Assembly (NCBI RefSeq): GCF_025464955.1
Contig: NZ_JAODNM010000124.1
Location: forward strand, 124,001-188,000
Direction of reading: 5' to 3'
DNA: 64,000 nucleotides
DNA from: Amycolatopsis sp.
GTDB taxonomy: Bacteria; Actinomycetota; Actinomycetes; Mycobacteriales; Pseudonocardiaceae
Positions within the stretch are counted from its first letter, which is position 1. Each line of letters starts with the position of its first letter. Shown here in pieces: positions 34,407-51,682 of the stretch. The translations under genes were made by a program, and so were the position numbers. Below the pieces are notes generated by a model. It did not search any database. It was given only the letters and a program-made list of their open reading frames with translations, and had not been told where the DNA came from.

Positions 34407-34464
34407 ATCAGAGGTCGACTTGTTCGCGAGACCGATCTTTCTTGCGGGCAAGTCGACCTCTGAT
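34407..34464. terminator. 16-bp perfect inverted repeat before CBASS
   Basis: ATCAGAGGTCGACTTG (34407-34422) pairs perfectly with CAAGTCGACCTCTGAT (34449-34464), leaving a 26-nt loop. It begins 12 nt after the 41-aa gene stop and may end that transcript. It could also be an operator or recombination site for the CBASS genes. Confidence 0.5.
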
Positions 34465-34636
34465 TGCACTAGATCCACGCAGTGCCGATAGAATATTCGG
34501 TAGCTTAAATAGAAATGATGATCTACTTCACAAGTATGAGATAATAGGAACATCAGAAAGCCTGGTTGCGCAACGACACTCCAAAAGTGACTCGACCTGG
34601 ATGAACCCGCACAGCAGGCAAGGTGAACAACGCGAC

Positions 34637-35527
34637 ATGACAACACTTGAAGAAAAACTGGCCGGCTGGACGGGAATCTCAAGCCCGACCGAGCAGGATA
34701 AACAAGACCGTACCGAGCGTATGATTCGTGAAGCCATCGAGGCTCATGCAGCGTTCGAGGGCTACGACATAGAGGTCTACGTTAAGGGATCCTATGCCAA
34801 CAAGACCAACGTGCGTGCTGACAGTGACGTCGACGTCGCTGTCAAGTGCAATGAACTTATGTACTACGAAGAGCAGGAGCCGGGAGTGAAGCCCGCCGGA
34901 ACTCCGTACACCGGAATTTGGACCCCATCCTACCTGCGTTCGGAGTTGAAGAAAGCTCTCGTTGCCAAGTTCGACGACCAGGTAGATGACTCGGGATCAA
35001 CTGCGTTCAAGATTAATTCGAGCACTGCGCGGGTAGACGCTGATGTCGTCCCTTGTTTCAATTATCGCTACTACTTTGCTTCGGGAGGCCATCTCAGCGG
35101 CGCCAGAGTTTTCAAGAACGACGGTAGCAGTCTGGAAAACTACTCCCAGCAGCAGCTTGACAAGGGGAACGCGAAGGACGGCCGAACCAACAGCGACTAC
35201 AAGAAAGTAGTCCGTATCATGAAGCGCGTCGAGAACCTCATGGTGGAGAACGATGTCCATCGGGCAGTTCCGTCCTTCTTTATGGAGTGCCTTGTTTACA
35301 ACTGCCCAGATGAGATTTTCCGTCGCTCGACGTGGACGGATGCTGTGAAGGGTGTTATCTCCCACGTCTGGGACAACCTTGATGGCGATGAGCCAACAGA
35401 CAATTCTGAGCGATGGGTTGAAGCAAACGACGTTAAGTATCTCTTCCACAGCGCTCAGGACTGGGACCGCAAGGACGGCAGGGACTTTGCGCAAGCCGCC
35501 TGGAGCCATCTGGAGCTTGACAAGTGA
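34637..35527 (+). CDS. CBASS cyclic-oligonucleotide synthase (CD-NTase)
   Basis: The 296-residue protein shows the CD-NTase active site: GS at 51-52, ANKTNVRADSDVDVAV with catalytic Asp64 and Asp66, and a third Asp in ARVDADVV (about 134-136). On phage infection such enzymes make cyclic di- or trinucleotides that trigger an effector. It overlaps by 4 nt the Cap15-like effector, giving a minimal type I CBASS. The ATG at 34637 follows AAGGTGA; upstream in-frame starts exist but lengthen the protein without motifs. Confidence 0.88.
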   Translation: MTTLEEKLAGWTGISSPTEQDKQDRTERMIREAIEAHAAFEGYDIEVYVKGSYANKTNVRADSDVDVAVKCNELMYYEEQEPGVKPAGTPYTGIWTPSYLRSELKKALVAKFDDQVDDSGSTAFKINSSTARVDADVVPCFNYRYYFASGGHLSGARVFKNDGSSLENYSQQQLDKGNAKDGRTNSDYKKVVRIMKRVENLMVENDVHRAVPSFFMECLVYNCPDEIFRRSTWTDAVKGVISHVWDNLDGDEPTDNSERWVEANDVKYLFHSAQDWDRKDGRDFAQAAWSHLELDK

Positions 35528-36141
35528 AGCGGGGTGTCTTGGTTCGCGTCGTTGTCGGCGTGGTTGTTGTTCTCCTGGTCATCCAGAACTGGCTACAGGG
35601 TGGGCAGTTCAACTTCGGCCTGTCGAAGATCTTCTCGACGGCGGTCCTCGCAGCCACACTTGTCCTCGCTCTATGGGAATCGTGGCTATGGCGACTTCCG
35701 CTCGCGCAGCGAATGCCGGGCACTCCTCGTTGCATACGCGGAACGTGGCGGGGCGTTCTGACCACGTTCTGGGTCGATCCGAAGACCGGGAAGAGTCCCG
35801 ATCCGAAGACGGTGTATCTGGTCATCAGACAGTCTGCGAGTGAGTTGTCGGTGAAGCTGCTTACCAACGAGTCTCGCTCCGCCTCATCATTCGCGAGCGT
35901 CAGGCTAGACGATGGATCGTACGAATTACTGTACCTATATCTGAACAGGCCAGATTCACGCTACGAGTCGCGCAGCCGTATGCATCACGGTTCTACAGCC
36001 CTGGACTTGTCCGGAAGTCCTGTCAAACGACTGAAGGGAAGGTACTGGACCGACAGGGATACGCGGGGCGAACTCGACTTCACCGAGCGAAGCATGAAAA
36101 TTGTGGATGACTTTGAGGAAGCGTCGGCTCTGTTTAGATAA
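35524..36141 (+). CDS. cap15: Cap15-like CBASS membrane effector
   Basis: The 205-residue protein has two N-terminal membrane helices (about 5-21 and 36-52). A beta-barrel-like domain starts at GTWRGVL (about 73-79), with alternating strands to the C-terminus. This is the Cap15 layout, in which the barrel binds a cyclic dinucleotide and the helices damage the inner membrane. The GTG start overlaps the synthase stop (GTGA). No Cap2/Cap3 ancillary genes follow. Confidence 0.82.
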   Translation: MKRGVLVRVVVGVVVVLLVIQNWLQGGQFNFGLSKIFSTAVLAATLVLALWESWLWRLPLAQRMPGTPRCIRGTWRGVLTTFWVDPKTGKSPDPKTVYLVIRQSASELSVKLLTNESRSASSFASVRLDDGSYELLYLYLNRPDSRYESRSRMHHGSTALDLSGSPVKRLKGRYWTDRDTRGELDFTERSMKIVDDFEEASALFR

Positions 36142-38566: not shown

Positions 38567-39076
38567 TTGAGCTACCGAAATAAGACCTACGTCGCGTTCG
38601 CTAGCGAAGAAATCCACTACTACCGACTCATGACCGCCTGGAAGAAGAACGAAGGTATAGACTTTGACTTCTTCAACGCCCACGAATTTGTACAGGCGCG
38701 TGACACCAGTCAGCCCGACACGATTCGACGAAGTCTGCGACTGCGATTGGCCAACACGAAACAAGTTGTCTTCCTGGGTAGCCGCAAAGGCAAATCCAAG
38801 GCGGGAGACAGCAAGTCGTTTCTGTTCTATGAGATTGAGGTGATCTCTAAGCTGAACTTGCCTGTGGTGGTGGCAAACTTGGATGGCGACCGGGAGGTCG
38901 ACAGAGACTTCATTCCGCAGCGCTTTCTCGACGAAGATTACTACACTGAGTCGGTATCATTTCAACCGAAGATTATTAAGTACGCCCTAGAGCACTACGC
39001 TGCCGAGTACTCCGCTTCAGCAAAGACTGGTCCTCATAGCTACAAGGCTCAAGCCTACACAAAGCTCGACCTGTGA
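38567..39076 (+). CDS. Thoeris-type TIR-like protein (ThsB, MTH538/DUF1863 fold)
   Basis: The 169-residue protein matches the small ThsB pattern: VAFASEEIHYYRLMTAW, then FDFFNAHEF, ARDTS, SLRLRLANTKQVVFLGS and FLFYEIEVISKLNLPVVVA with Glu89 as candidate catalytic residue. Such TIR proteins sense phage and make a nucleotide signal from NAD. It starts at TTG with a good GAGGAG site 4 nt away. The stop overlaps the macro-domain gene (GTGA), so sensor and effector are coupled. Confidence 0.82.
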   Translation: MSYRNKTYVAFASEEIHYYRLMTAWKKNEGIDFDFFNAHEFVQARDTSQPDTIRRSLRLRLANTKQVVFLGSRKGKSKAGDSKSFLFYEIEVISKLNLPVVVANLDGDREVDRDFIPQRFLDEDYYTESVSFQPKIIKYALEHYAAEYSASAKTGPHSYKAQAYTKLDL

Positions 39077-39948
39077 CCAAGACTGGAATCGCAAGGGATT
39101 TCACCAAGAAGCGATTTTGGGCAAAGTTCTCCACGCAGACGCTGGCCTGCGTAGGTTTTTTCGCAGTCATCGCGGGATTAACGGACGTTCTTTTTCCAAA
39201 TGTGGTGCCGAAGATCGGCCTCCCTCTCGCGATCGTTACTATTGTCGTTTCGCTCGGATACGGCCTGTACCGATCGTGGCCAAGGCCCGTCATGCAAAGC
39301 TACAACTCGCCGAACACCGAGATTCATGTGATTGAAGGTGATCTCTTCGACCAGGAGGGCAACACCGTCATAGGGATGGCGGACACCTTTGACACGGAAA
39401 TACCCAACATTATCGACGAAAACGGAATACAGGCGCAGCTACTTACGCGCATCTACCACAACGATCTTCGCGCACTCGACGGCGCCTTAGCTTCAGCACT
39501 GAACACGCATACGATCGACCACAGATTCAAACCCGAGGACGGCAAGCCCGGCAAGCAAGATGCGTACCCGGTTGGTACCGTGGTCACAATTTCACCAGCC
39601 ATCCGACGCTTGTTCTTCTGCCTCGCATACACTGAAATGAATAAGCTCAACGAAGCACGCGGCACCGTCGACGGCGTCTGGCGAAGCCTCAACAACCTGT
39701 GGGACGAGGTGCGAACGAAGGGAAATGGCGGACCGATATCGATCGCTGTCATCGGCGGCGGCCAGGCTCGCATCTCCCAATACCTTCCAGCGCAAGATTC
39801 TATCCGCTTCATTGCGCTCTCGTACATGTTTGCATCCCGGAAAGAGAAGGTGGCGAGCCGACTCAACATCGTCGCAACAAGGAGCGTCGTTAAAAACCTA
39901 GACATGCTTGAGATTCAGGCGTTTCTGAAATCCCTGAGGCCGTCATGA
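39073..39948 (+). CDS. Two-TM macro-domain effector (type II ThsA-like, DUF6430-like)
   Basis: The 291-residue protein has two N-terminal membrane helices (about 22-40 and 48-66) followed by a macro-like domain (VIEGDLFDQEGNTVIGMADTFDTE, ENGIQAQLLTRIYHNDL). This layout equals the effector of type II Thoeris, where a macro domain binds His-ADP-ribose and the helices disrupt the membrane. It overlaps both neighbours by 4 nt. The assignment rests on layout and motif resemblance. Confidence 0.78.
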   Translation: MTKTGIARDFTKKRFWAKFSTQTLACVGFFAVIAGLTDVLFPNVVPKIGLPLAIVTIVVSLGYGLYRSWPRPVMQSYNSPNTEIHVIEGDLFDQEGNTVIGMADTFDTEIPNIIDENGIQAQLLTRIYHNDLRALDGALASALNTHTIDHRFKPEDGKPGKQDAYPVGTVVTISPAIRRLFFCLAYTEMNKLNEARGTVDGVWRSLNNLWDEVRTKGNGGPISIAVIGGGQARISQYLPAQDSIRFIALSYMFASRKEKVASRLNIVATRSVVKNLDMLEIQAFLKSLRPS

Positions 39949-40382
39949 ACACTTCGCTGGAAATTCCCGAAGTCGCGCGCTGCCCATTTTGCGACTACCT
40001 GACGGGAGCCCGACCGTTCACTATCCTGACAAGGGATTCCCTGACGGCAACTCTCGTAACGCGTGAGCAACGTGGCGCCGGCCACCTCCTGGTGATTCCA
40101 GTACAACACCGCCCTACACTGCTTGACCTCACCCGTGATGAGGCCTCCGCCGTCATGGCTTCCGTGACCTCTGCTGCAAGAGCTGTCACCCTTGCATACC
40201 AGTCCGAAGGCTTGGCCGTGTGGCAGAACAACGGAGTTCCTGCGCACCAGACGATTCCGCACGTACACTTCCATGTTGCCGGAACACTGCCCGAAGGCGG
40301 AACCGAATGGGATGAAGTAGACGAAGCGTCGATCGCCGAGACGGATGTCATCGCCGAAAAGCTTCGACCGTTTATTGCTTGA
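39945..40382 (+). CDS. HIT-family nucleotide hydrolase, third gene of TIR/macro operon
   Basis: The 145-residue protein has the catalytic triad HVHFH (His106, 108, 110) and an N-terminal CPFC pair (Cys13, Cys16) typical of zinc-binding HIT proteins. HIT enzymes cleave nucleotide phosphoramidates, dinucleoside polyphosphates or nucleotide adducts. Its ATG overlaps the macro-gene stop (ATGA), so it is made with the immune pair. A role in degrading or editing the TIR-derived signal is inference. Its end overlaps the convergent TIR gene by 11 nt. Confidence 0.85.
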   Translation: MNTSLEIPEVARCPFCDYLTGARPFTILTRDSLTATLVTREQRGAGHLLVIPVQHRPTLLDLTRDEASAVMASVTSAARAVTLAYQSEGLAVWQNNGVPAHQTIPHVHFHVAGTLPEGGTEWDEVDEASIAETDVIAEKLRPFIA

Positions 40383-41679
40383 TCGCATCCCACACGTGCT
40401 TATATTCTAGATTTGCCGGAACATTGTATTCCGACCGGAACCATTCATCGAACTCTGGAGTCACTTCTTTCATGAACACAGCAAGAGCCTTGGCTGCAGC
40501 ATACGCCTCGTTAACGTCCGGAAACTCTAAGTTGGCATCCAGATCTTCAAGGGTGTCGACCAAATGGCCTTGCTGCAGTGCCTTGGTCGCCTCGTCGTGG
40601 CGTCCCTCGTCCTTTGCGGCGTGCGGCCATTCTAGTAGTTGATTCTGCGTCTTGTTCCATATTGCATCATGCACAATGGGGGAGATTTTCCGGAACGCTT
40701 TAATCATAGCGCTTTGAAGGACATGGAACCGTTCAATCTCATCCTCAGGAAGCGCCGCTTCACGCACCTCCTCGGCGGTCTTCGCGGCGACAATGCGCTT
40801 GTTCTGTCGCTCAAGGTCACGAAGGTCATTCTCTGAACTGCGCAACGCTTCTTGGGTGTCCTTAAGTCGATCCTTGAGTTCCTGAAACTCGGTTGGATCT
40901 ATTATTTGAGGAACGCTCAAATCCTTCGCGAGGTCGTCAACGCTGGCAAGCCAGCGTGCGGCGCGCGGCCCCCATGCCGCGGCCTTCCCGTGGCGCCCGG
41001 CCGCCTTCATGACCTGGTCGTGCAGTTGATCAAGCGTCGCACGATCATCAATGTAACTAGTTAGCAAGCTGGCTAAAATGCCATCCAGGTCAGTGTGCTT
41101 CATCCCGGGTGTTAAGACAGGGAATAGTGCACCGTACTTAACCCATGCGGCACCAAGCTCAGCAAGGCAATACGTGCTATCCAGGTACATTGGCGATATA
41201 ATCGCAATGACTAGATCTGAATCTCGAACTTTCTCGCGAAGATAATGATTCAAATCTTCGCCGGGAAGAATTCCCGTGTCTGCGCCGGAACTATAGAAGA
41301 CTTCCTCAGGTGACAATCCAGATCCGAGTATCAGAATCTGCTCGACGAATTGTGTTACAAACTTTTCATCCTGGGAAGCGTGACTGACGAAAATACGCGG
41401 CGCGGCGACATCCTGTCTCTCGCGTTCGGCATCAGGGATCGTATTCTGACGGTACTTGGATGTCGCGAACCGAGCGACACCGTTACTGCATTCATGGTCA
41501 CAATCAGGTAGTGACAGGATTTTCTCTGGCTCGTGTCGCTGCGGTCGCTCCCACGACTTGTGCCGTAGAGCACGGCGGTGTTCACCAGCACGATGAATGA
41601 GAGCTGCAGCTAGCGCACAAAAACCAACGGCTGATCGGGCGTCGGTGTGCCATCGGTACCGACAACGACATACGGGCAT
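40372..41679 (-). CDS. TIR-domain protein with unknown C-terminal domain
   Basis: The protein of about 435 residues has a Cys/Arg-rich N-terminal extension of about 95 residues. A TIR domain follows (RIFVSHASQDEKFV, DLVIAIISPMYLDSTYCLAELGAAW, with the CLAE Glu as candidate NADase residue). A coiled-coil stretch (KDRLKDTQEALRSSENDL) leads to a helical C-terminal domain with no recognised family. The frame has no ATG, GTG or TTG between the N-terminal codons and the TIR domain, so ATG 41679 (or GTG 41688) is used. It stands between a terminator and the HIT gene. Confidence 0.78.
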   Translation of the reverse strand: MPVCRCRYRWHTDARSAVGFCALAAALIHRAGEHRRALRHKSWERPQRHEPEKILSLPDCDHECSNGVARFATSKYRQNTIPDAERERQDVAAPRIFVSHASQDEKFVTQFVEQILILGSGLSPEEVFYSSGADTGILPGEDLNHYLREKVRDSDLVIAIISPMYLDSTYCLAELGAAWVKYGALFPVLTPGMKHTDLDGILASLLTSYIDDRATLDQLHDQVMKAAGRHGKAAAWGPRAARWLASVDDLAKDLSVPQIIDPTEFQELKDRLKDTQEALRSSENDLRDLERQNKRIVAAKTAEEVREAALPEDEIERFHVLQSAMIKAFRKISPIVHDAIWNKTQNQLLEWPHAAKDEGRHDEATKALQQGHLVDTLEDLDANLEFPDVNEAYAAAKALAVFMKEVTPEFDEWFRSEYNVPANLEYKHVWDAIKQ

Positions 41680-41692
41680 CTGCCTCACAGAT

Positions 41693-43033: not shown

Positions 43034-43426
43034 ATGACCGCGCTCATCGACAGCCGCATGCGGGTAGGGGACGACACCGAGGACGACCTATCGCCGCTGC
43101 TGGCGCTCCGGCCGCTGGCCTACGGCTACATGCGCGTGCCCTGCGACATTCCCGACGCCAAAGTGCGTCGGATGGAGCTGGAAATGCAGCGCTTCAGTGA
43201 GCGCCAGGGCTGGTGCTTGGCGGCCATCTTCTACGAGTTCGTCTGCGGCGTGCACGATGCCTTTGAGGAGCTGGTCGAGGAACTGCAGCGTGCCGATGCG
43301 CACCACGTCGTCATCCCGACGTACCGGCACTTGGCTCGCAGCCCGCTGCTGCAAAACAGCCTGTTGCAGCGGCTGGAGTTCGACGCCCATGCCGAAGCCG
43401 TCGAGCTGGCAGAGACCGTCGCATGA
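43034..43426 (+). CDS. Resolvase-N-terminal-like protein lacking catalytic Ser
   Basis: The 130-residue protein resembles the N-terminal domain of serine recombinases: YGYMRVPCD, then VRRMELEMQRFSERQGW, FYEFVCG and DAHHVVIPTYRHLARS. In active enzymes the YxRVS motif supplies the nucleophilic serine; here it is proline. It has no DNA-binding tail; a separate HTH protein follows with a 4-nt overlap. It leads a five-gene coupled operon. Confidence 0.65.
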   Translation: MTALIDSRMRVGDDTEDDLSPLLALRPLAYGYMRVPCDIPDAKVRRMELEMQRFSERQGWCLAAIFYEFVCGVHDAFEELVEELQRADAHHVVIPTYRHLARSPLLQNSLLQRLEFDAHAEAVELAETVA

Positions 43427-43677
43427 GCGCGCCGGACACGACCCACAAGGTCGGGAACCCACAGGTCACGCGTCCACCGCTCGTTAACAGTGCGGCTCGC
43501 CGAGCGCTCGCTATCAAACTGAAAGCTGCCTACGAAGCCGGAGCGACGACGACCAGTCTGGCCGCCGAACACGGGCTGGCTATGCACACCATCTGGCGGC
43601 TACTCAAAGAAGTGGACACCGCCATGCGGCGTACCGGGCCCGCGCGTCGTGAAAGGGACTACGGCGATGACCTCTGA
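43423..43677 (+). CDS. Small HTH protein (Hin/resolvase-tail-like)
   Basis: The 84-residue product contains an HTH of the type that ends serine recombinases (AAYEAGATTTSLAAEHGLAMHTIWRLLKEV, about residues 34-63). It overlaps the resolvase-like gene and the next resolvase-like gene. Together the genes resemble a recombinase split into domains; DNA binding is likely, recombination is not. Confidence 0.7.
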   Translation: MSAPDTTHKVGNPQVTRPPLVNSAARRALAIKLKAAYEAGATTTSLAAEHGLAMHTIWRLLKEVDTAMRRTGPARRERDYGDDL

Positions 43678-44083
43678 CGCCTTCCCACAGCTTCAGGTTC
43701 TCGCGAGCAAGCTGCTCCAGCTGCCCTTGGTCGACCCCCCGACCAGCGCCGAGATGGTCTACGGCTACGTCCGCACCAACACGGTGCAACCGGCGTACGT
43801 GGATGCGTGCGCCGACCTCCTGACCTGGTGGAGCTCGGCCATCGGACTGCGCCTCGGCACGGTCTTCCGCGACCACGGCGTTGCCGGAACGGCGCTCATC
43901 CGTCCCGGCTTCACCGGGCTGCTGGATGTGCTGCGACTGCCGCAGAGCGCCGGCGCGTTAGTGGTCGAGGGCTCGCACCTCTCCGGCTCGGCCGCGGTGG
44001 CCAAGCAGCTGAGCTCAGAAATCCGCCGTACCGCCTCCACGTTGCGCATCCTGGCTGACGAGCTCGCCGAGGTGACCGCGTGA
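43667..44083 (+). CDS. Second resolvase-like protein lacking catalytic Ser
   Basis: The 138-residue product has YGYVRTN where an active enzyme has YxRVS, and DHGVAGTALIRPGFTGLLDVL where resolvases have their D-box and R motif. The C-terminal helix resembles no known tail. The ATG at 43667 follows AAAGGGA; a GTG at 43649 is an alternative. It overlaps the HTH gene by 11 nt. Confidence 0.6.
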   Translation: MTSDAFPQLQVLASKLLQLPLVDPPTSAEMVYGYVRTNTVQPAYVDACADLLTWWSSAIGLRLGTVFRDHGVAGTALIRPGFTGLLDVLRLPQSAGALVVEGSHLSGSAAVAKQLSSEIRRTASTLRILADELAEVTA

Positions 44084-44385
44084 AGCAGCAGACGGGCGAG
44101 CTGGTCAACGCATTGCATTCGGTCAACCTGCATGTGCCCACGGTGGCTACCAGCTTGCTGGCCGGAACCTTGCCTGTCGCCAAGCAGCGCGAATTCGCCG
44201 GGCTACTCATTGAGCTGGGCAACTTGCTACACAGGCACGCCGACGACAGCCCGTCCGAGCCCCGGCACGCCCTACGCGACGAGGGCGACGAACACATGCG
44301 CCTGACCGGCACCATTGACAGCTCGTCCGTTCCGGATTGGCTGGTGTTGGAGTCCAACGACGGTGACGACCCTCCGGACCGGTGA
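44080..44385 (+). CDS. Hypothetical protein (101 aa) of mobile-element operon
   Basis: The product has a helical N-terminal half (VNALHSVNLHVPTVATSLL, REFAGLLIELGNLLHRHA) and an acidic, flexible end. It starts at GTG overlapping the previous stop and overlaps the next gene by 4 nt. No domain was recognised. Confidence 0.65.
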   Translation: MKQQTGELVNALHSVNLHVPTVATSLLAGTLPVAKQREFAGLLIELGNLLHRHADDSPSEPRHALRDEGDEHMRLTGTIDSSSVPDWLVLESNDGDDPPDR

Positions 44386-44741
44386 ACGGCTGGGCGGTCT
44401 GCGCCGTAGTGGTTATCGGGGGGCCGCTGTTGCTCCTCGTTCACTGGGCCGTCTCCGACTGGCTCCGGCAACGACGGCAGCGCCGCCTCATTGTCCACCA
44501 ACAGCCGGACTGGTCAGTGTCGGCGATCGTGGCGCGGGTGGAGCAGGAACGCGCCGACGAAGCAACGGCCTGGCCAACAGGAGATCCCGAAGTGACCGAA
44601 GTCCTACCAATGCTGCCGGTTGACGAGCAGCCATACGTCGGCCGCAAACCCAGCCCGTACCCCCGGCAACGGATGCCATTGCAGCCACCGGACACCGAGG
44701 TTATCCGGCAGGTACTGGACGGGTTGAAGCGGCTCGACTGA
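44382..44741 (+). CDS. Small membrane protein with proline-rich tail
   Basis: The 119-residue protein has one N-terminal membrane segment (about 4-26), a basic patch (RQRRQRRL) and a hydrophilic tail rich in Pro and Glu. It is the last of five overlapping genes. Function unknown; a membrane-anchored partner in an element-encoded complex is possible. Confidence 0.65.
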   Translation: MNGWAVCAVVVIGGPLLLLVHWAVSDWLRQRRQRRLIVHQQPDWSVSAIVARVEQERADEATAWPTGDPEVTEVLPMLPVDEQPYVGRKPSPYPRQRMPLQPPDTEVIRQVLDGLKRLD

Positions 44742-44979: not shown

Positions 44980-45045
44980 ATGAACAACAGTTGCAGTGGT
45001 CAATTGGGCAATGTTTGCGATTTCAATTCATGTGAGGTAAAATAG
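44980..45045 (+). CDS. Possible 21-aa cysteine-containing peptide
   Basis: The frame encodes MNNSCSGQLGNVCDFNSCEVK with a GGGAG ribosome site 4 nt upstream, and stops 2 nt before the HAD gene start. It may be a leader or a short peptide. Three Cys residues in 21 are unusual. Evidence is limited to position and the ribosome site. Confidence 0.3.
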   Translation: MNNSCSGQLGNVCDFNSCEVK

Positions 45046-45047
45046 TC

Positions 45048-45728
45048 GTGACGATGACGAGGGAAAAGGTGATAATTCTAGATGTTGACCACACGCTAAC
45101 GGTCCATAATTCATGGACCGAGCTTACGCGTGCATTGGGCGCTTCGACTGAAGATCACTTAGAATTACATAAAAGTCTGATTGATCATAAAATTGAACTA
45201 GACGAAGCTAATCGGCGGCTCGTCAGATTATGGCAACATACGGGAAAGGCAAATCGCGATTTTGTCGATCGCACGTTCCGGGAAATGCCATTGAAAACGG
45301 AAGCGAGGTTGCTCGTAGAGTGGTTAGCGCTGAACGGGTACCGCACATGTCTCATCTCTGGTTCAATGGATCGATACGTTAGCGCCGTGGCCGCTCATCT
45401 GGGCATTCAGGACTGGTTCGCTAATGGCCGACTCCTATTCGATGAACAAGACCAGCTCGTGGGACTTAAATACCGTCCGGACCAAAGTGTAGTTAAACTT
45501 GAACAGCTCAGAGAATTATGTGCTCATGTCCAGGTCGATACGACCGATACTGTCGTTGTTGGCGACGGTGAAAACGACCTCAATATCTTCAAAGAGACAC
45601 GCCGAGGAATTCTCGTCTCCACAAATCCAATTCCTGACTTGCAGCGCGCGGCCTGGATGATCGTACCTAACCTCCGCGACATACCGGCAATACTTGAAGC
45701 CAATTCTACCTCTCCAAGTACTCACTAA
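45048..45728 (+). CDS. HAD-superfamily phosphatase (phosphoserine-phosphatase-like)
   Basis: The 226-residue protein has DVDHTLT (nucleophile Asp12, Asp14), ISGSMD and GDGENDL, a full HAD type-I set with a helical cap. It would remove phosphate from a small metabolite. The GTG (or ATG 6 nt later) starts right after the 21-aa frame. Its end overlaps that of the convergent MiaA-like gene by 23 nt. Confidence 0.85.
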   Translation: MTMTREKVIILDVDHTLTVHNSWTELTRALGASTEDHLELHKSLIDHKIELDEANRRLVRLWQHTGKANRDFVDRTFREMPLKTEARLLVEWLALNGYRTCLISGSMDRYVSAVAAHLGIQDWFANGRLLFDEQDQLVGLKYRPDQSVVKLEQLRELCAHVQVDTTDTVVVGDGENDLNIFKETRRGILVSTNPIPDLQRAAWMIVPNLRDIPAILEANSTSPSTH

Positions 45729-46605
45729 TCAGTGTGCTCGCCTCTGCCATGTAGTCGCCAGAAGAATCCAGCCAATGAATATTCGAATCGCGTCGGAACC
45801 AGATGAGTTGCTTTCGTGAAAATTGATAGATGTTGGTAGCCAAGTTTTTAACCAGCTCGTCCTCGCTCTTGTAAACACCTTGTATGTACCGCAGCAAGTG
45901 TCTGTACTCAAGCCCTAGCGAATCCAACGTGGCTGGGCTTACACCGGAATCAAGGAGGTCCACGGCCTCCTCAACCATGCCTTCCGTCATACGTCTGGTC
46001 AGTCGCGCGTAAATGCGTTCCCGTAGCACTTCGGGCGGCCACGTAAGACCCAATGCCAGTACAGTGTATCGCGGTTCAGGTGCGTATTGCTCGGAGTAGC
46101 GAACCCCGCCTGCGCTAAGCTCCAATGCTCTAACTATCCGCCTTGTGTTGCGTCGGTCTATAAGCTCAGTAGCCTTAGGGTCAACTGCTGAAAGTCGCTC
46201 CCAAAGGTCGCTTTCACTCATCCCCTCTAACTCAGCCCGCAGCGCAGGGTTCGGAGCTACGTCTAGCAGCCTGTATCCTTGCGTAACCGCAGTTACATAC
46301 AGGCCGGTGCCCCCTACAAGAAATGGGGTAGACCCTTCGGCTTGGACATCATCGATTGTTTGGTACGCCAACCTTTGATAGTCCGCCAAAGAGAAAGTCA
46401 CGTCTAGATCAACGACATCGATCAGATGATGTGGGATTCCGCGCATTTCAGCTTCTGTCAGCTTGCCGGACCCCAGATCTAAACGACGGTAAACCTGTCG
46501 CGAATCTGCCGATATCACCTGGCCATTGAAGCGCTCTGCCAGATCAACACCAAGACTACTCTTGCCGGACGCATTAGTTCCGACAACGGCAACAATTTTC
46601 ACCAT
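45706..46605 (-). CDS. MiaA-like dimethylallyltransferase, divergent copy
   Basis: The 299-residue protein has P-loop GTNASGKSS and the MiaA block ISADSRQVYRRLDLGSGKLT, with conserved Arg in YARLTRRM and the LGLEYRHLLRYIQG helix. MiaA adds a dimethylallyl group to adenosine 37 of tRNA. Here GSGK replaces the usual GTAK, and the gene sits in a low-GC accessory region rather than next to hflX or dapF. It could act on tRNA or on a nucleotide as in cytokinin synthesis. Confidence 0.8.
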   Translation of the reverse strand: MVKIVAVVGTNASGKSSLGVDLAERFNGQVISADSRQVYRRLDLGSGKLTEAEMRGIPHHLIDVVDLDVTFSLADYQRLAYQTIDDVQAEGSTPFLVGGTGLYVTAVTQGYRLLDVAPNPALRAELEGMSESDLWERLSAVDPKATELIDRRNTRRIVRALELSAGGVRYSEQYAPEPRYTVLALGLTWPPEVLRERIYARLTRRMTEGMVEEAVDLLDSGVSPATLDSLGLEYRHLLRYIQGVYKSEDELVKNLATNIYQFSRKQLIWFRRDSNIHWLDSSGDYMAEASTLISEYLER

Positions 46606-46647
46606 TCAAGTTCCATACTGTCAGTTGGATTTAGTACCACGAGAATC

Positions 46648-47943
46648 TTAATCTGCATTCCGCTTGGAAGTAATTCTCCAAAGATTGGCCAAGCCTGGGT
46701 TAAATCGCGCAGCTAGTATCATGTCTACCAACTTGTCTTTCTTTGGGTCCACAAATATTTGCTTTAAGACGGATGCGCCACCAATTCCTTCAAGAACCGA
46801 CGCGCCTGCAATGTGACCCAGCCACCCTCCCAGGGCCGGGCTACCAACCTTCAACATCACTTGGATCGAACTTTCAACTCTTCGAGCTTTCCTTACAAAC
46901 TGCGCGGACGACAACTCTTTCGCGGCGACAGAAATCTCTTTTTGAAGATCGGACGCGCGATCTAGCATTTCCCGATGACCAAGGTGGGACGCTTTAGATG
47001 CCTTGCTGACCTTGTTCGCTTTAGACTCAAAATAGCTCATAGCCCTGCGCAGTCTTACGCTATGGCCAGATTGATGGAAGTCAATGATGGCACTAGCATC
47101 CATGGTCCTAACCTTAAATCCAAGCCCATTCAAGAGGAGGGGCAAGGTGTCGGGTATAACGCGAACCATAGTCTTATCGCGAGCAAAGTCGAGTCCAGCG
47201 AAGATGCTCGCCTCGTTTGCAAAGAACTGTCGGTCGTAGTTTGCGGTTCCACCCAAGCCAAACAACGTCGGATACGTTCGAATCTCGTTAGCCAAAAACA
47301 GTCGTTGAGCTATGTCGCCAGCGCTGGCCAGTCCTGAAAATGAGTCGGCAATCTCGCCCTCGCCGAAGATCCACAGGTCCGCGTAGTTAATAAGAATTTC
47401 CCGTTTGATTCGATTGGTAAGATCATCACGTGACAGTTCGGGGTGGTATGCAGAATACTTCGTACGCAATGGTTGCCATGCCGCCATCTCTGCAACGGGA
47501 AGCGGGCAATGAGCCTCAATAAGCGTATCCCCGAGATTTAGTCGTTCGAGCAGTGCGGCGCCTCTTGGATACAAAGCTGGCGGCTGGGTCTCAAGAAGTG
47601 GTTCAAAATGCGGCCTACCATAGTCAATCGCTCGACCGATAATTGGCTGAACGATACCCGCACGAGCTAATTCGACAACCGTGTCGAGCGAAAGGCCCCA
47701 GCGCTGCTCTAGCGCTTTCTGCGGGGCGGATGGAACATAGACGACTGTCTTATCGTACAGAAAGATGAGAAATGCCAGAGGGATCGGGGTTCTGGCGTAC
47801 GCGGTCTGCTTTACTATTTGAATATCAGGATACAGATCTTCGGGTCCTGATATGTACCCGCGTTGAACAGTCTCATACCCCTCCGAGAGCACCAGAGACG
47901 CTTGCTCGTCGTCGTAGGCGGCCAGTTTTCTGTCCCTGCTCAC
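46648..47943 (-). CDS. Unknown protein (431 aa)
   Basis: The product has no recognised domain. Its N-terminal part is mixed alpha/beta, a middle helical stretch carries KANKVSKASKASHLGHREMLDRA, and a weakly hydrophobic Gly-rich segment (SPALGGWLGHIAGASVLEGIGG) lies near residue 385. It starts at GTG overlapping the 131-aa gene (GTGA) and is followed by the MiaA-like gene in the same direction, so the three may form one operon. Confidence 0.7.
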   Translation of the reverse strand: MSRDRKLAAYDDEQASLVLSEGYETVQRGYISGPEDLYPDIQIVKQTAYARTPIPLAFLIFLYDKTVVYVPSAPQKALEQRWGLSLDTVVELARAGIVQPIIGRAIDYGRPHFEPLLETQPPALYPRGAALLERLNLGDTLIEAHCPLPVAEMAAWQPLRTKYSAYHPELSRDDLTNRIKREILINYADLWIFGEGEIADSFSGLASAGDIAQRLFLANEIRTYPTLFGLGGTANYDRQFFANEASIFAGLDFARDKTMVRVIPDTLPLLLNGLGFKVRTMDASAIIDFHQSGHSVRLRRAMSYFESKANKVSKASKASHLGHREMLDRASDLQKEISVAAKELSSAQFVRKARRVESSIQVMLKVGSPALGGWLGHIAGASVLEGIGGASVLKQIFVDPKKDKLVDMILAARFNPGLANLWRITSKRNAD

Positions 47944-48335
47944 GATCGCATATCTTTCGACTCAAACTCGATATGTGAATCATCAGGATAGAAGGTTGCG
48001 GTCAAGTCAGGTTTAGAGGTACTGATCGTCACGGTCGGCGCCAGAGTTATACCAGGAACCCCTTGCATGTAGTAGGCGACAACATGGATAAGCGCTTCTA
48101 GTTCAACTTGATGCGCCTCATTATCACCAGGATATTCTTCCGAAACTTCCAATTCAAACTGACTGTTGGTGGATATGCGAGCTTCGCGGACGAGTCCGTC
48201 AGTTATGCTGAATCCGACTTCGCCACACGAGATCCATTGATCGTCATCAACGGCCGATGGCCACTCGATGATCGCGCGATTCTGCACCTCGCCGTCAGCT
48301 TGCGGTATTCTCAGAACCGCGAACTCAGCAAGCAT
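47940..48335 (-). CDS. Unknown protein (131 aa) coupled to 431-aa gene
   Basis: The 131-residue product is acidic and beta-rich (FAVLRIPQADGEVQNRAIIEW, EVGFSITDGLVREARIS, TATFYPDDSHIEFE). AGGGG lies before the ATG. It overlaps the following gene by 4 nt and may be its binding partner, antitoxin or chaperone. No family was recognised. Confidence 0.7.
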   Translation of the reverse strand: MLAEFAVLRIPQADGEVQNRAIIEWPSAVDDDQWISCGEVGFSITDGLVREARISTNSQFELEVSEEYPGDNEAHQVELEALIHVVAYYMQGVPGITLAPTVTISTSKPDLTATFYPDDSHIEFESKDMRS

Positions 48336-48674
48336 GTTTACCCCTAAGAAGGGTCGTCGGGAAGCTTCGGACAGCCGATGTTACGCGACGACAGAGCACC
48401 CTGCGCGCGCACGTTGACCAGTATGCTCAACGCACGTTGAATTACATGCGGCGCTGGGTGCAGCGGCGTAGCGTCCTTCGGTGTCTGTACTAGGTTGGTC
48501 GACCGCGGGCTCGTCGTCGCAATCCATCCCCCAACTGCTCCTGGGTGACGGGGCTTACAACCAGCGTGAACCGCTTCCGACGTCGCGGCTCGTGGCTACA
48601 CTAAGCGCACGGGATGACACGCAGACGAGACATAAGGAGCGCGAGCGCGGGGGCGCAGCGGTTAGGGGGAGATC
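48336..48674. promoter_or_regulatory. Divergent promoter region with inverted repeat
   Basis: This 339-bp gap separates the unknown operon from the SAV_915/WXG operon. It contains the dyad TCAACGCACGTTGA at 48427-48440 and a second GCACGTTGA at 48409-48417, a possible operator. TACACT near 48597 could be a -10 box for the rightward operon. No gene was supported. Confidence 0.45.
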
Positions 48675-49355
48675 GTGACCACCGGAGGGGACGCCGCTGG
48701 TGCTCGGCATGCACTGGTTCGGCTTGATGACGCACCCGACCGACTACCCGAGTTGCTGTTTGTGCTGGTGACGCCGCCGGAAGGTGGACAACCGGGCGGG
48801 GTCGAGGTGCGACGCACAGCCCGCCAGGACAAGGCCGTTATCGCGTACAGCAGGATCGATCTGCTGGTCGGTGCCTGCGGAGCCGGGCAGCCGTGGGTGC
48901 AGGTCACCAGGGACCAGCTGATCGCGTTTTGCGAGGAGTTGAAGGTCGGCACGATCACGCTGGACGCGGTGGTTGACGTGACGCCCCGTTATCCAGAGGT
49001 GGATAGCCGAGAGCTGCCGCCGCTCGAGCCGATGGAGCCGCTCGAAGAACACGACGACCTGCTGTACGTGCCGTCGCGGCCGGTGAAAGAAGGCCAGTAC
49101 GGAGTGGAGCTGGAGCTGCAACCCGATACCGGGGGACGGCCTCTGCTCATGGCGTACACCTCAGCTCAGCTGCTCGCCGCCGGGTGCGGCGAGTTCCAGC
49201 CGTGGGTCGCGATCCGCGTCGACGACATCGAGGAGATCGTCGACGAATCCGGCGCGCGCGGCGTACTGATCAACCCCGTGCTGGCTGAAGAGTCGCGGCA
49301 CGCCGGGCCTGTGCACGACTGGAACCGACGCTCACTAACTGGAGGGAACCAATGA
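48675..49355 (+). CDS. SAV_915/SseB-like protein
   Basis: The 226-residue protein contains two copies of an SseB-like fold: one ends VIAYSRIDLLVGACGAGQPWVQV, the second ends LLMAYTSAQLLAAGCGEFQPWVAI. Such proteins accompany ESX/WXG gene clusters in actinobacteria. It starts at GTG with GGGGGAG upstream and overlaps the next gene by 4 nt. Confidence 0.78.
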   Translation: MTTGGDAAGARHALVRLDDAPDRLPELLFVLVTPPEGGQPGGVEVRRTARQDKAVIAYSRIDLLVGACGAGQPWVQVTRDQLIAFCEELKVGTITLDAVVDVTPRYPEVDSRELPPLEPMEPLEEHDDLLYVPSRPVKEGQYGVELELQPDTGGRPLLMAYTSAQLLAAGCGEFQPWVAIRVDDIEEIVDESGARGVLINPVLAEESRHAGPVHDWNRRSLTGGNQ

Positions 49356-49696
49356 CCGGCCCATACGGCGAAGGCGGCGGCTACAGCTACACGGCCGGAG
49401 CACTCAATTCCCTTGCCGGGCAGCTCAACGACGGTGCGCAAGCACTCGACAACGTCGCTTCCCGCGCGGTGAACGCCGTCGACGCCGGGGCCTCGTCCGC
49501 CGCTGTCGGCACGGTCCTGTCCGACATCATCCAGATGGCCACTGCCGCAGCTGGAGCCATGGGCGGAACAGCGAGCCGAGTGCACTCCGCGAACGGGTCT
49601 TACGACGATATCGAGAACAGCAACGCCGGACAGATGAAGCTCAACGCGGACAACGACACCCCGGACAGCCGTCTTCAAGACGGCGTCCACGGATAA
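49352..49696 (+). CDS. WXG-like ESX-type helical protein
   Basis: The 114-residue protein is Ala/Gly rich and predicted helical (LNSLAGQLNDGAQALDNVASRAVNAV and a second helix), in the size range of ESX substrates. No obvious WXG triad is seen. It lies between the SAV_915-like gene and the large WXG protein. It may be a secretion partner or chaperone for the latter. Confidence 0.65.
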   Translation: MTGPYGEGGGYSYTAGALNSLAGQLNDGAQALDNVASRAVNAVDAGASSAAVGTVLSDIIQMATAAAGAMGGTASRVHSANGSYDDIENSNAGQMKLNADNDTPDSRLQDGVHG

Positions 49697-49705
49697 CGGG
49701 GCGAC

Positions 49706-50941
49706 ATGGGACAGGCACTCAACACCACCGTCAACGGCAGCTCCGGCACCTGCATCGCTGCCGCCGATTGGCTGCACACCGTGGCCGACGCCGGCCACCA
49801 CGCCGCAGGCTGTGTCCGCAGCGCCAACACCACAGCCGAAGCCGGATGGCAAGGACCAGCAAGTCAGGCCTTCGCGGACGCGATCAACCATGTCGATGTG
49901 GTGTCCGACGAGATGGCGACCTGGGCATCCAACACCGAACGCGGACTGCGCGACTTCGCGTCGTCGCTGGACGCGGTGGTCGCGCAGATGCAGGACGCCC
50001 TCACCAAGGCCGCCGCCGGAAAGCTCGCAGTTCAGGGCCCCTTTATCGTTGAGCCTGATCCCGTGGCGATGCCGCAGCCGGGTACCCCGGCCAAGGTCTG
50101 TATGGCGAACAACGTCGTCGGGATCGTCGGGACCTACCAGGGCGACATCAAGGTCTACAACGGCCTGGTGGCCGACTACAACGCCAAGATCGCCGTCTAC
50201 AACACCTGCAAAGCGATCGTCGACGCGGCCCGCACCACCGAAGGCAACGCCCACGACGCCCTCCAACAGGCGCTCCAGCCACCCCCTGAGGGGCCACAGA
50301 TCAACGCCTACAAGCTGGGCAACACCACCATCTCGCGTGTCAACGGGTACATCAAGAGCTTCGAGAACCCGCGCATGGAGAACCTGCTCAAGGCAGGCAG
50401 GGCTGAAACCAACGCCCAGTTCTTCGAGGGGTGGGCCAACGGCGCGCTGACCACCTTGAGCGCCGACGACAAGGGACTCCTGCAGTGGGCTGCGGACAAT
50501 TCGCGCGGCAACAAATTCGGCTACGAAGCTCGTGCGCAGGAGTACGGCAAGTACGTTGCCACCGTCCCGCAGGGCGTGCGGGACCTCATCTCGGCCTACC
50601 CTGGCAAAGGGAAGTATGCAATGCTCCCCGCCGACGCGGGCATTGAACTGCAAGCTGGGCAAAAACTCCTCAAGGGTCTGCCCTACGTCGGGAGCCTGCT
50701 CACGATAGGCACCGAGGCTTTCGGGGCCTACAAGGGTGAGCAGACCTGGGCGCATGCCGCGGCCAGTACCGGCGGTGTCATCGGTGGTGGGATACTCGGT
50801 GCGGCGGGTGCCAGCGCGGCCGCCGGAGCAATCTACGGTTCGCCACTCGGCCCGGTCGGCTCGTTCGTGGTCGGCACGGCCGGCGGGATCGCTGGAGCGA
50901 TCGGCGGCCAGGCGGTCGTGGACTGGCTGGTGCCCCATTAA
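49706..50941 (+). CDS. Large WXG100-type secreted protein with glycine-zipper end
   Basis: The 411-residue protein has an N-terminal helical hairpin with AGWQGPASQAFADAI, the WXG motif of ESX substrates (about residues 48-62), then a linker and a central domain (residues 190-300). The C-terminal hydrophobic segment (GGVIGGGILGAAGASAAAGAIYG, then VVGTAGGIAGAIGGQAVVDW) resembles a membrane-inserting glycine zipper. It may be a secreted pore-forming effector; no enzymatic motif was recognised. The next gene encodes a membrane protein that may be its immunity partner. Confidence 0.72.
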   Translation: MGQALNTTVNGSSGTCIAAADWLHTVADAGHHAAGCVRSANTTAEAGWQGPASQAFADAINHVDVVSDEMATWASNTERGLRDFASSLDAVVAQMQDALTKAAAGKLAVQGPFIVEPDPVAMPQPGTPAKVCMANNVVGIVGTYQGDIKVYNGLVADYNAKIAVYNTCKAIVDAARTTEGNAHDALQQALQPPPEGPQINAYKLGNTTISRVNGYIKSFENPRMENLLKAGRAETNAQFFEGWANGALTTLSADDKGLLQWAADNSRGNKFGYEARAQEYGKYVATVPQGVRDLISAYPGKGKYAMLPADAGIELQAGQKLLKGLPYVGSLLTIGTEAFGAYKGEQTWAHAAASTGGVIGGGILGAAGASAAAGAIYGSPLGPVGSFVVGTAGGIAGAIGGQAVVDWLVPH

Positions 50942-50959
50942 CAGCGAAAGGCCAACACG

Positions 50960-51682
50960 GTGACGGACCCGTCGCGAAACGCAGACAACCCGTACAGCGG
51001 TGACCAGCTACCACCCCGACCTGACCCCCACACCGGACAGCCGTTCCCGCCGCACGGGCTGAGCTACATGGGTGGGCCGGAGACCGACCGGTTCGACGAC
51101 CCGCGCCGTGAGACGAGACTGTCCCGCAAACCCGAGCCACCGCCCGGTCTAGGTCCGGTGCTGGCCTGGTACCAAGTAAGTCGTGGCGGCAAGGTGATGA
51201 ACGTGCTGATCGGGTTCCTTGGGATGCTCCTCATGGTCGCCGTGATCTCCCTGACCGCCGGTGCTGGCCTATCCGGGTTCACGGCCTGGCCGATGTGGAT
51301 TCTTATTGTGGTCGGCACTGTCCTGACGACCAGCCCGTTCAGCTACTTCACTTACTCGGCGGGGGCGGACTGGCTCCTGGTGGAGCGGGTCCGCTGGGGA
51401 GTGCGGAAGCGGGGTTGGGTAGATCTGTACGAGCTGAAGCGGATCGACGCGTCCTTCGGTGGCACCACCTTCCATCTTTGGCTGTTCGACAAGGATTTGG
51501 GCTTCAGTCGCAGTTTCCAAGAACTTCAGCAGGATCGACGCATCTGGGACCTCGTCTACAACGGCATCCTGCATTCGGTCGCAGGCGGTGCCGAGCCGAG
51601 CAAGCAGGCCATCGGCATCCTCAAGCTGAATGAGACTCCGGCGCTACGGTTGCGGGAATCTGCACGATCTTCCGAGGAGTAG
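50960..51682 (+). CDS. Two-TM membrane protein, possible immunity partner
   Basis: The 240-residue protein has a Pro/Arg-rich cytoplasmic N-terminus (about 1-78), two hydrophobic segments (about 82-104 and 112-131) and a C-terminal soluble domain with ADWLLVERVRWGVRKRGWVDLYELKR. It starts at GTG 18 nt after the WXG protein with GAAAGG. A PH-like or cytoplasmic regulatory domain is possible. Immunity is inference. Confidence 0.65.
   Translation: MTDPSRNADNPYSGDQLPPRPDPHTGQPFPPHGLSYMGGPETDRFDDPRRETRLSRKPEPPPGLGPVLAWYQVSRGGKVMNVLIGFLGMLLMVAVISLTAGAGLSGFTAWPMWILIVVGTVLTTSPFSYFTYSAGADWLLVERVRWGVRKRGWVDLYELKRIDASFGGTTFHLWLFDKDLGFSRSFQELQQDRRIWDLVYNGILHSVAGGAEPSKQAIGILKLNETPALRLRESARSSEE

Follow-up and report, generated by a model that had tools for sequence, protein, structure and literature searches.

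MiaA, the canonical tRNA-A37 dimethylallyltransferase (TIGR00174; Escherichia coli structures 2zm5 and 3foz), modifies the position next to the anticodon, and tRNAs are a point of attack for several bacterial immune systems, according to passages of PMC12409363. For the E. coli enzyme, the relevant passages of PMC8234997 name K23, T24, H67, and R217 as residues that bind dimethylallyl diphosphate (DMAPP) and K56, R167, R170, and K280 as residues that bind tRNA; they assign DMAPP activation and transition-state stabilization to Thr19, and they give D42 as the general base. A T19A substitution in E. coli MiaA is expected to cut kcat ~600-fold with little effect on Km values, as stated from earlier work in an excerpt of PMC9303304. 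Here, we describe a MiaA homologue encoded in a 64,000-nucleotide (nt) stretch of Amycolatopsis sp. DNA (contig NZ_JAODNM010000124.1, positions 124,001 to 188,000), the whole of which we refer to as the window. Its gene lies on the minus strand (45706..46605) within a four-gene cassette among known defence genes, and the protein has Asn at the position of E. coli Thr19. Our favoured reading, which we regard as quite possible while stopping short of calling it probable, is that the cassette is cargo of a defence hotspot and encodes an altered prenyltransferase of tRNA anticodon loops that was acquired horizontally.

The 299-amino-acid (aa) protein is homologous to MiaA over its full length. It scores 205.6 bits against TIGR00174 (cut-off, 148.65; model positions 2-286 of 288) and 209.3 bits against PF01715 (cut-off, 23.6; model positions 1-243 of 243, protein residues 37-273), and the best-scoring structure chain is 2qgn. 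The genome contains two MiaA genes, the cassette copy (210 bits) and an ordinary one on another contig (C31; 274 bits), and their products are 39% identical to each other. By eye, the open reading frames (ORFs) neighbouring the ordinary gene resemble those for DapF and a DUF349 protein. Because the ordinary MiaA sits on another contig, the cassette MiaA is an accessory copy, not the housekeeping one; this agrees with the first-pass annotation, which was made by a model from the sequence alone and according to which a lone miaA would have been a housekeeping gene. A strong MiaA match (E ≤1e-30) was present in 376 of 386 family genomes, and only the present genome had two such matches. In the phylum set (396 genomes), five others (G277, G354, G416, G477, and G547) had two MiaA matches at E ≤0.001, which represent split genes or second copies. 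These family and phylum searches yielded matches to MiaA alone, and neighbouring genes were checked at the loci that were fetched. In the excerpts of literature returned for “miaA2,” the only topic found was regulation of N6-isopentenyladenosine at position 37 (i6A37).

We mapped residues by alignment to E. coli MiaA (2zm5) and counted column states over 71 other MiaAs, omitting one locus (L034) as a duplicate of another (L067). The P-loop Lys K23 (K15 in the window protein), the general base D42 (D34), and R217 (R201) are kept here and in all 71 others. The window MiaA also keeps Y47 (Y39), H67 (H59), and K56 (K48), together with R167 and R170 (R156 and R159, placed by reading the alignment). 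T24 is replaced by S16, as in 34/71 others, and K280 by R264, with Arg also found in 22/71. Judged by the surrounding residues, R264 corresponds to R274 of Mycobacterium tuberculosis MiaA, the change of which to Gln abolished activity according to passages of PMC10644310; the Arg is kept in the window protein. Because the residues that contact tRNA according to the literature are kept, tRNA anticodon loops are the most likely target. The Thr19 position, which is Asn11 (AAT codon) in the window MiaA, is Thr in 71/71 other aligned MiaAs. Compared with a canonical tRNA-A37 dimethylallyltransferase, the window protein lacks Thr19 and has counterparts of K56, R167, R170, and K280 (as R264). A foreign MiaA in which an otherwise unvarying catalytic residue is changed leads to a hypothesis about a single residue, Asn at Thr19.

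Two features of the protein weigh against reading it as a working prenyltransferase of tRNA. The enzyme may be inactive, because Thr19 is changed and the T19A substitution lowers kcat so strongly; inactivity is not a given, since Asn at this position could still act as a hydrogen-bond donor. In addition, position 260 is Tyr in the window MiaA, whereas it is R or K in 40/40 canonical MiaAs, and the helix that contains this position contacts the tRNA backbone, according to passages of PMC4046958 and PMC10644310. In the second-copy set described below, the same position is His in 20/30 and Gly in 5/30 sequences.

By lineage, too, the protein stands apart from the MiaAs of its phylum. An exact peptide-pattern search of genome contigs returned a single relative, a Desulfuromonadales MiaA with 43% identity; the genome concerned (G941) encodes two MiaAs, whose scores against the window protein are 234.6 and 156 bits. 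In the class of this genome, which we take to be Desulfuromonadia, two MiaA matches (E ≤1e-20) were found in 52 of 58 genomes and one in the other 6, which indicates an additional MiaA lineage common to the majority of genomes sampled from this class. The 30 best-scoring loci of this class (L067 and L069-L097), all with a GLEYR motif, formed the second-copy set, and the lineage sampling consisted of the present phylum and this one other class. A 73-row tree places the window MiaA with the second-copy set at 100/100. An approximately unbiased (AU) test rejected placement of the window MiaA with same-phylum MiaAs (p-AU 0.018, for a test group named after the tree had been seen). The window protein shares the GLEYR motif, Ile259, Gly47, and Arg36 with these second MiaAs, its closest tree group, and is 39-45% identical to the 30 loci; unlike the window protein, the 30 loci keep Thr19, and two MiaAs per genome are usual there. 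The origin of the window MiaA is nevertheless unsure, because its end branch is long (1.28), with a long-branch warning from the tree tool, and because its agreement at the 26 columns diagnostic for one set or the other is mixed (12 with the second-copy set, 9 with the canonical MiaAs, and 5 with neither).

The ORF next to the L034 copy appears PcnB-like by eye, and 17/30 second-copy loci have a relative of it within their 1.5-kb flanks. The flanks of the 31 loci searched contained no match to the other three cassette proteins. A MiaA likewise located on a mobile replicon is encoded by Clavibacter plasmid pCI1 (L038); it differs from the window MiaA in sequence (31% identity), in its position on a long branch among same-phylum canonical MiaAs, in keeping Thr19, and in its neighbours. 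The pCI1 gene starts within a GMC oxidoreductase gene, with which it shares 4 nt at that gene's end; the two are perhaps a metabolic pair.

All four ORFs of the cassette were present on the strands and at the coordinates given by the first-pass annotation. A gene for a HAD-IB family phosphatase (226 aa; 45048..45728, plus strand) converges on the MiaA gene, and the 3' ends of the two share 23 nt (45706-45728), as that annotation had reported. The minus-strand run begins with the gene for a 131-aa protein (47940..48335) and continues through the gene for a 431-aa protein (46648..47943) to miaA; the first two genes overlap by 4 nt (47940-47943), and 42 nt separate the 431-aa gene from miaA. We simulated the stretch 1000 times with a first-order Markov model and recorded the longest ORF per run; it was ≥226 aa in 0.4% of runs, with a maximum of 286 aa. 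The HAD, MiaA, and 431-aa ORFs thus exceed chance in length. By length, the 131-aa ORF does not stand out from chance, as an ORF of ≥131 aa appeared in 41.6% of simulated runs; we take it as real because of its 4-nt overlap with the 431-aa gene and its similar composition. Promoter and terminator scans gave results little above those of shuffled sequence (5 vs. 2.9, SD 1.5, and 4 vs. 3.5, SD 1.9, respectively).

The G+C fraction (GC) of positions 45040-48340 is 0.509, compared with 0.635 for the whole window, and 0.6% of 3.3-kb stretches are equally low. Individual genes have values of 0.488, 0.526, 0.516, and 0.503, whereas the blocks on either side have 0.662 and 0.653. The drop in GC that the first-pass annotation described is therefore real, but it is not peculiar to these four genes, because GC is also reduced elsewhere in the island (1-kb steps of 0.53-0.56 at 34-42 kb and 0.51-0.63 at 52-59 kb). 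The cassette has no convincing terminal repeats.

Several known defence genes lie near the cassette. PADLOC identified a CBASS cyclase and a Cap15-type two-transmembrane (2TM) effector (34442..36141, plus strand; 432 and 254 bits; PF18153), the Thoeris proteins ThsB (TIR-like) and ThsA (macro domain) (38567..39948, plus strand; 269 and 381 bits), and an SpbK-like TIR protein within 34-42 kb. On the other side, positions 51.8-55.1 kb encode a 1087-aa protein that includes an ATPase stretch; it matches NF040586 in part, far below the cut-off, and has AAA and TPR rows below their cut-offs. The cassette itself occupies a slot between two blocks of plus-strand genes. The left block (43034..44741) consists of two weakly resolvase-N-terminal-like proteins (PF00239 twice below cut-off), a helix-turn-helix (HTH) protein (PF19575 over cut-off), and two small genes with no assignment. 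The right block (48675..51682) consists of an SseB-like protein (PF07179 just over cut-off), two weakly PPE/WXG-like proteins (PPE rows below cut-off), and a 240-aa protein.

Comparison with congeners shows that the contents of this slot vary. In one congener (G713), both blocks are collinear with those of the window at 70-80% DNA identity, and the slot holds 2.5 kb of other genes. DNA matches to the region were found in 16 of 75 genus genomes, our own included; among the matches listed, both blocks flank the slot in the same order only in G713. Right-block matches occur in congeners G713, G718, G696, G684, G663, G668, and G704, and in G718 the left-block genes lie beyond the right block, on its other side. 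On a different contig (C148), the present genome repeats the blocks in shortened form, without the cassette; relatives of the CBASS pair come next, and the cyclase match among them falls into two parts that lie in different frames, possibly a broken gene. Searches with the cassette DNA identified no second four-gene cassette among the 75 genus genomes, phages, and plasmids, and MiaA searches of genome contigs (by peptide patterns) and of viral, phage, and plasmid sets identified none at the fetched loci, for which neighbours were checked. The first-pass annotation had named a neighbourhood lacking conservation as a refutation of its proposal, and the four-gene neighbourhood was indeed not found elsewhere in the genomes searched. 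Without a second occurrence of the cassette, there is no conservation evidence for joint action of the four genes, which also weighs against treating them as a unit.

Based on these comparisons, the stretch would be a horizontally acquired cargo cassette that occupies a slot in a defence island. The most likely activity of its divergent second MiaA is to bind tRNAs at the anticodon stem-loop and to prenylate N6 of adenosine 37, with DMAPP as donor of the dimethylallyl group. Given Asn in place of Thr19 and the loss of one basic position from the tRNA-binding helix, we suspect that prenylation is perhaps slow or is directed to tRNAs other than those of the housekeeping MiaA. We infer the activity of the MiaA homologue, tRNA as its substrate, and its partnership with the 131-aa and 431-aa proteins; for the last of these, the evidence is gene order and composition. 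The location of the cassette suggests a role in defence, which it neither demonstrates nor excludes. What the analysis confirmed is an accessory MiaA in the cargo slot of a defence island. It represents a variant form within a known enzyme family and is accompanied by two orphan partners; a four-gene “system” is unproven. Even without a defence role, the locus would be an example of a tRNA-modifying enzyme that travels as island cargo.

The surroundings also bring to mind an anti-phage or toxin-antitoxin-like module, which we consider possible but doubtful. In such a module, the 131-aa and 431-aa proteins would act as sensor and effector, the altered MiaA would mark, guard, or sense tRNA anticodon loops (e.g., by shielding self tRNAs or detecting their cleavage), and the HAD protein would remove phosphate from the product or signal. 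This idea fits the position of the cassette among CBASS, Thoeris, the SpbK-like TIR protein, and the ATPase-like protein, as well as the different cargo in the G713 slot. It also fits the composition that the two orphan genes share with miaA, their 4-nt overlap, the retention of tRNA-contacting residues alongside a changed catalytic residue, and the targeting of tRNAs by bacterial immune systems described in the passages of PMC12409363 cited above. However, a position in an island does not by itself demonstrate defence, and the cassette was seen in one genome only. PADLOC 2.0.0 returned no row for the HAD, 431-aa, or 131-aa protein and, for MiaA, none better than E 0.015, and a literature search joining MiaA, anti-phage, and defense found nothing related. 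The proposal of the first-pass annotation that tRNA modification serves defence or counter-defence thus retains the foreign composition and the neighbouring defence genes in its favour, but the case for the defence part of it comes from location. A more specific version, which we think quite unlikely, is a new kind of defence module in which a mobile, Thr19-exchanged MiaA would hold or mark UNN-reading tRNAs at their anticodon loops and in this way gate a co-transcribed 431-aa/131-aa effector pair during phage infection, with the HAD protein erasing a phosphorylated product.

An imported MiaA that lost Thr19 might instead be a catalytically dead or decaying passenger, drifting without a selected role. 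The replacement of an otherwise invariant Thr by Asn11, the deviation of the window MiaA at 27/90 conserved columns of a 40-sequence reference set, and its presence in a single genome speak for such decay; nevertheless, the reading frame is open for 299 codons without a stop, and every other residue that the literature names is either kept or exchanged conservatively. We judge this explanation unlikely. Very improbable, in our view, is prenylation of a free nucleotide (AMP or ATP), as in the cytokinin-like product suggested by the first-pass annotation, with the HAD protein dephosphorylating or degrading that product. MiaA and adenylate isopentenyltransferases (Tzs/FasD kind, PF01745) have a common mechanism, according to passages of PMC8234997, a phosphatase gene adjoins miaA, and the window protein exceeds the PF01745 cut-off (27.7 vs. 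20). However, that match is limited to the P-loop end (residues 3-61; model positions 2-60 of 233), in contrast to the far longer and stronger match to PF01715 given above, and the tRNA-binding residues are kept. In addition, no LOG-like or cytokinin-oxidase-like family was found among the scanned proteins, which represent part of the window's ORFs. A cytokinin-like nucleotide product is therefore not supported, and an altered prenyltransferase of tRNA anticodon loops is the reading that we favour.

The protein encoded opposite miaA scores 80.2 bits against TIGR01488 (HAD-IB; cut-off, 45) and contains the motifs D12xD14xT, SG (residues 104-105), and GDGEND (residues 172-177). It shares the DxDxT, SG, and GDxxND motifs with SerB-type phosphatases of the HAD-IB family (1f5s and 7qpl). 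Unlike these, it falls under the SerB equivalog cut-off (67.6 vs. 144.15 bits) and below the cut-offs of all SerB-type models listed, and we rejected an identity as SerB phosphoserine phosphatase on this basis. Relatives at E ≤1e-8 were found in 9 of 120 family genomes, our own included, with best identities of 23-29%. The HAD gene has cassette-like composition, and nothing links its product to the reaction of MiaA.

For the 431-aa and 131-aa proteins, the first-pass annotation had reported no recognised domains, and nothing credible emerged from Pfam, NCBIfam, PADLOC, or PHROGs. Pfam gave no row for either protein even at E 10, NCBIfam gave a single row far under its cut-off, and all PHROGs rows were at E 0.01 or worse. 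Chance matches aside, relatives of the 431-aa protein were not found in 200 order genomes or 390 family genomes (own genome in both counts), in genome contigs searched with exact peptide patterns, or in viral, plasmid, and phage sets. Credible relatives of the 131-aa protein were likewise absent from 119 other family genomes, viral contigs, and plasmid and phage sets; for both proteins, metagenomes and NCBI nr lay outside the search. Two matches of the 431-aa protein (L035, E 0.005; L036, E 0.008) were attributed to chance; the ORFs that neighbour them are, by eye, ferredoxin-type and alpha/beta-hydrolase-like. One match of the 131-aa protein (L048) had only 18 residues in common, with an ORF that appears HNH-like by eye, and was rejected. 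A PDB sequence search with the two proteins returned only rows at E 1.7 or worse. AlphaFold2 (AF2) single-sequence modelling gave an unusable model of the 431-aa protein (predicted local distance difference test [pLDDT] score of 33.8) and a model of the 131-aa protein that was too poor for use (pLDDT 59.0); in a Foldseek comparison of the latter with the PDB, 0/511 matches reached E ≤0.001.

Other observations concern the island and its counterparts. The genome encodes two CBASS-like cyclase and Cap15-like pairs, one in the window (34442-36141) and one on contig C148 (L065, 11759-13128). Within the window, the Thoeris pair and the SpbK-like TIR protein together span 38567-41688, with a HIT-domain gene in between. 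At 43034-44083, flanking the slot, the two separate, weakly resolvase-N-terminal-like proteins lie beside the HTH protein as if a serine recombinase had been split. The corresponding slot of congener G713 (L059, 9617-12108) contains ORFs of 330 aa and 109 aa, neither with a PADLOC match or a Pfam match over cut-off, which are possibly unknown cargo.

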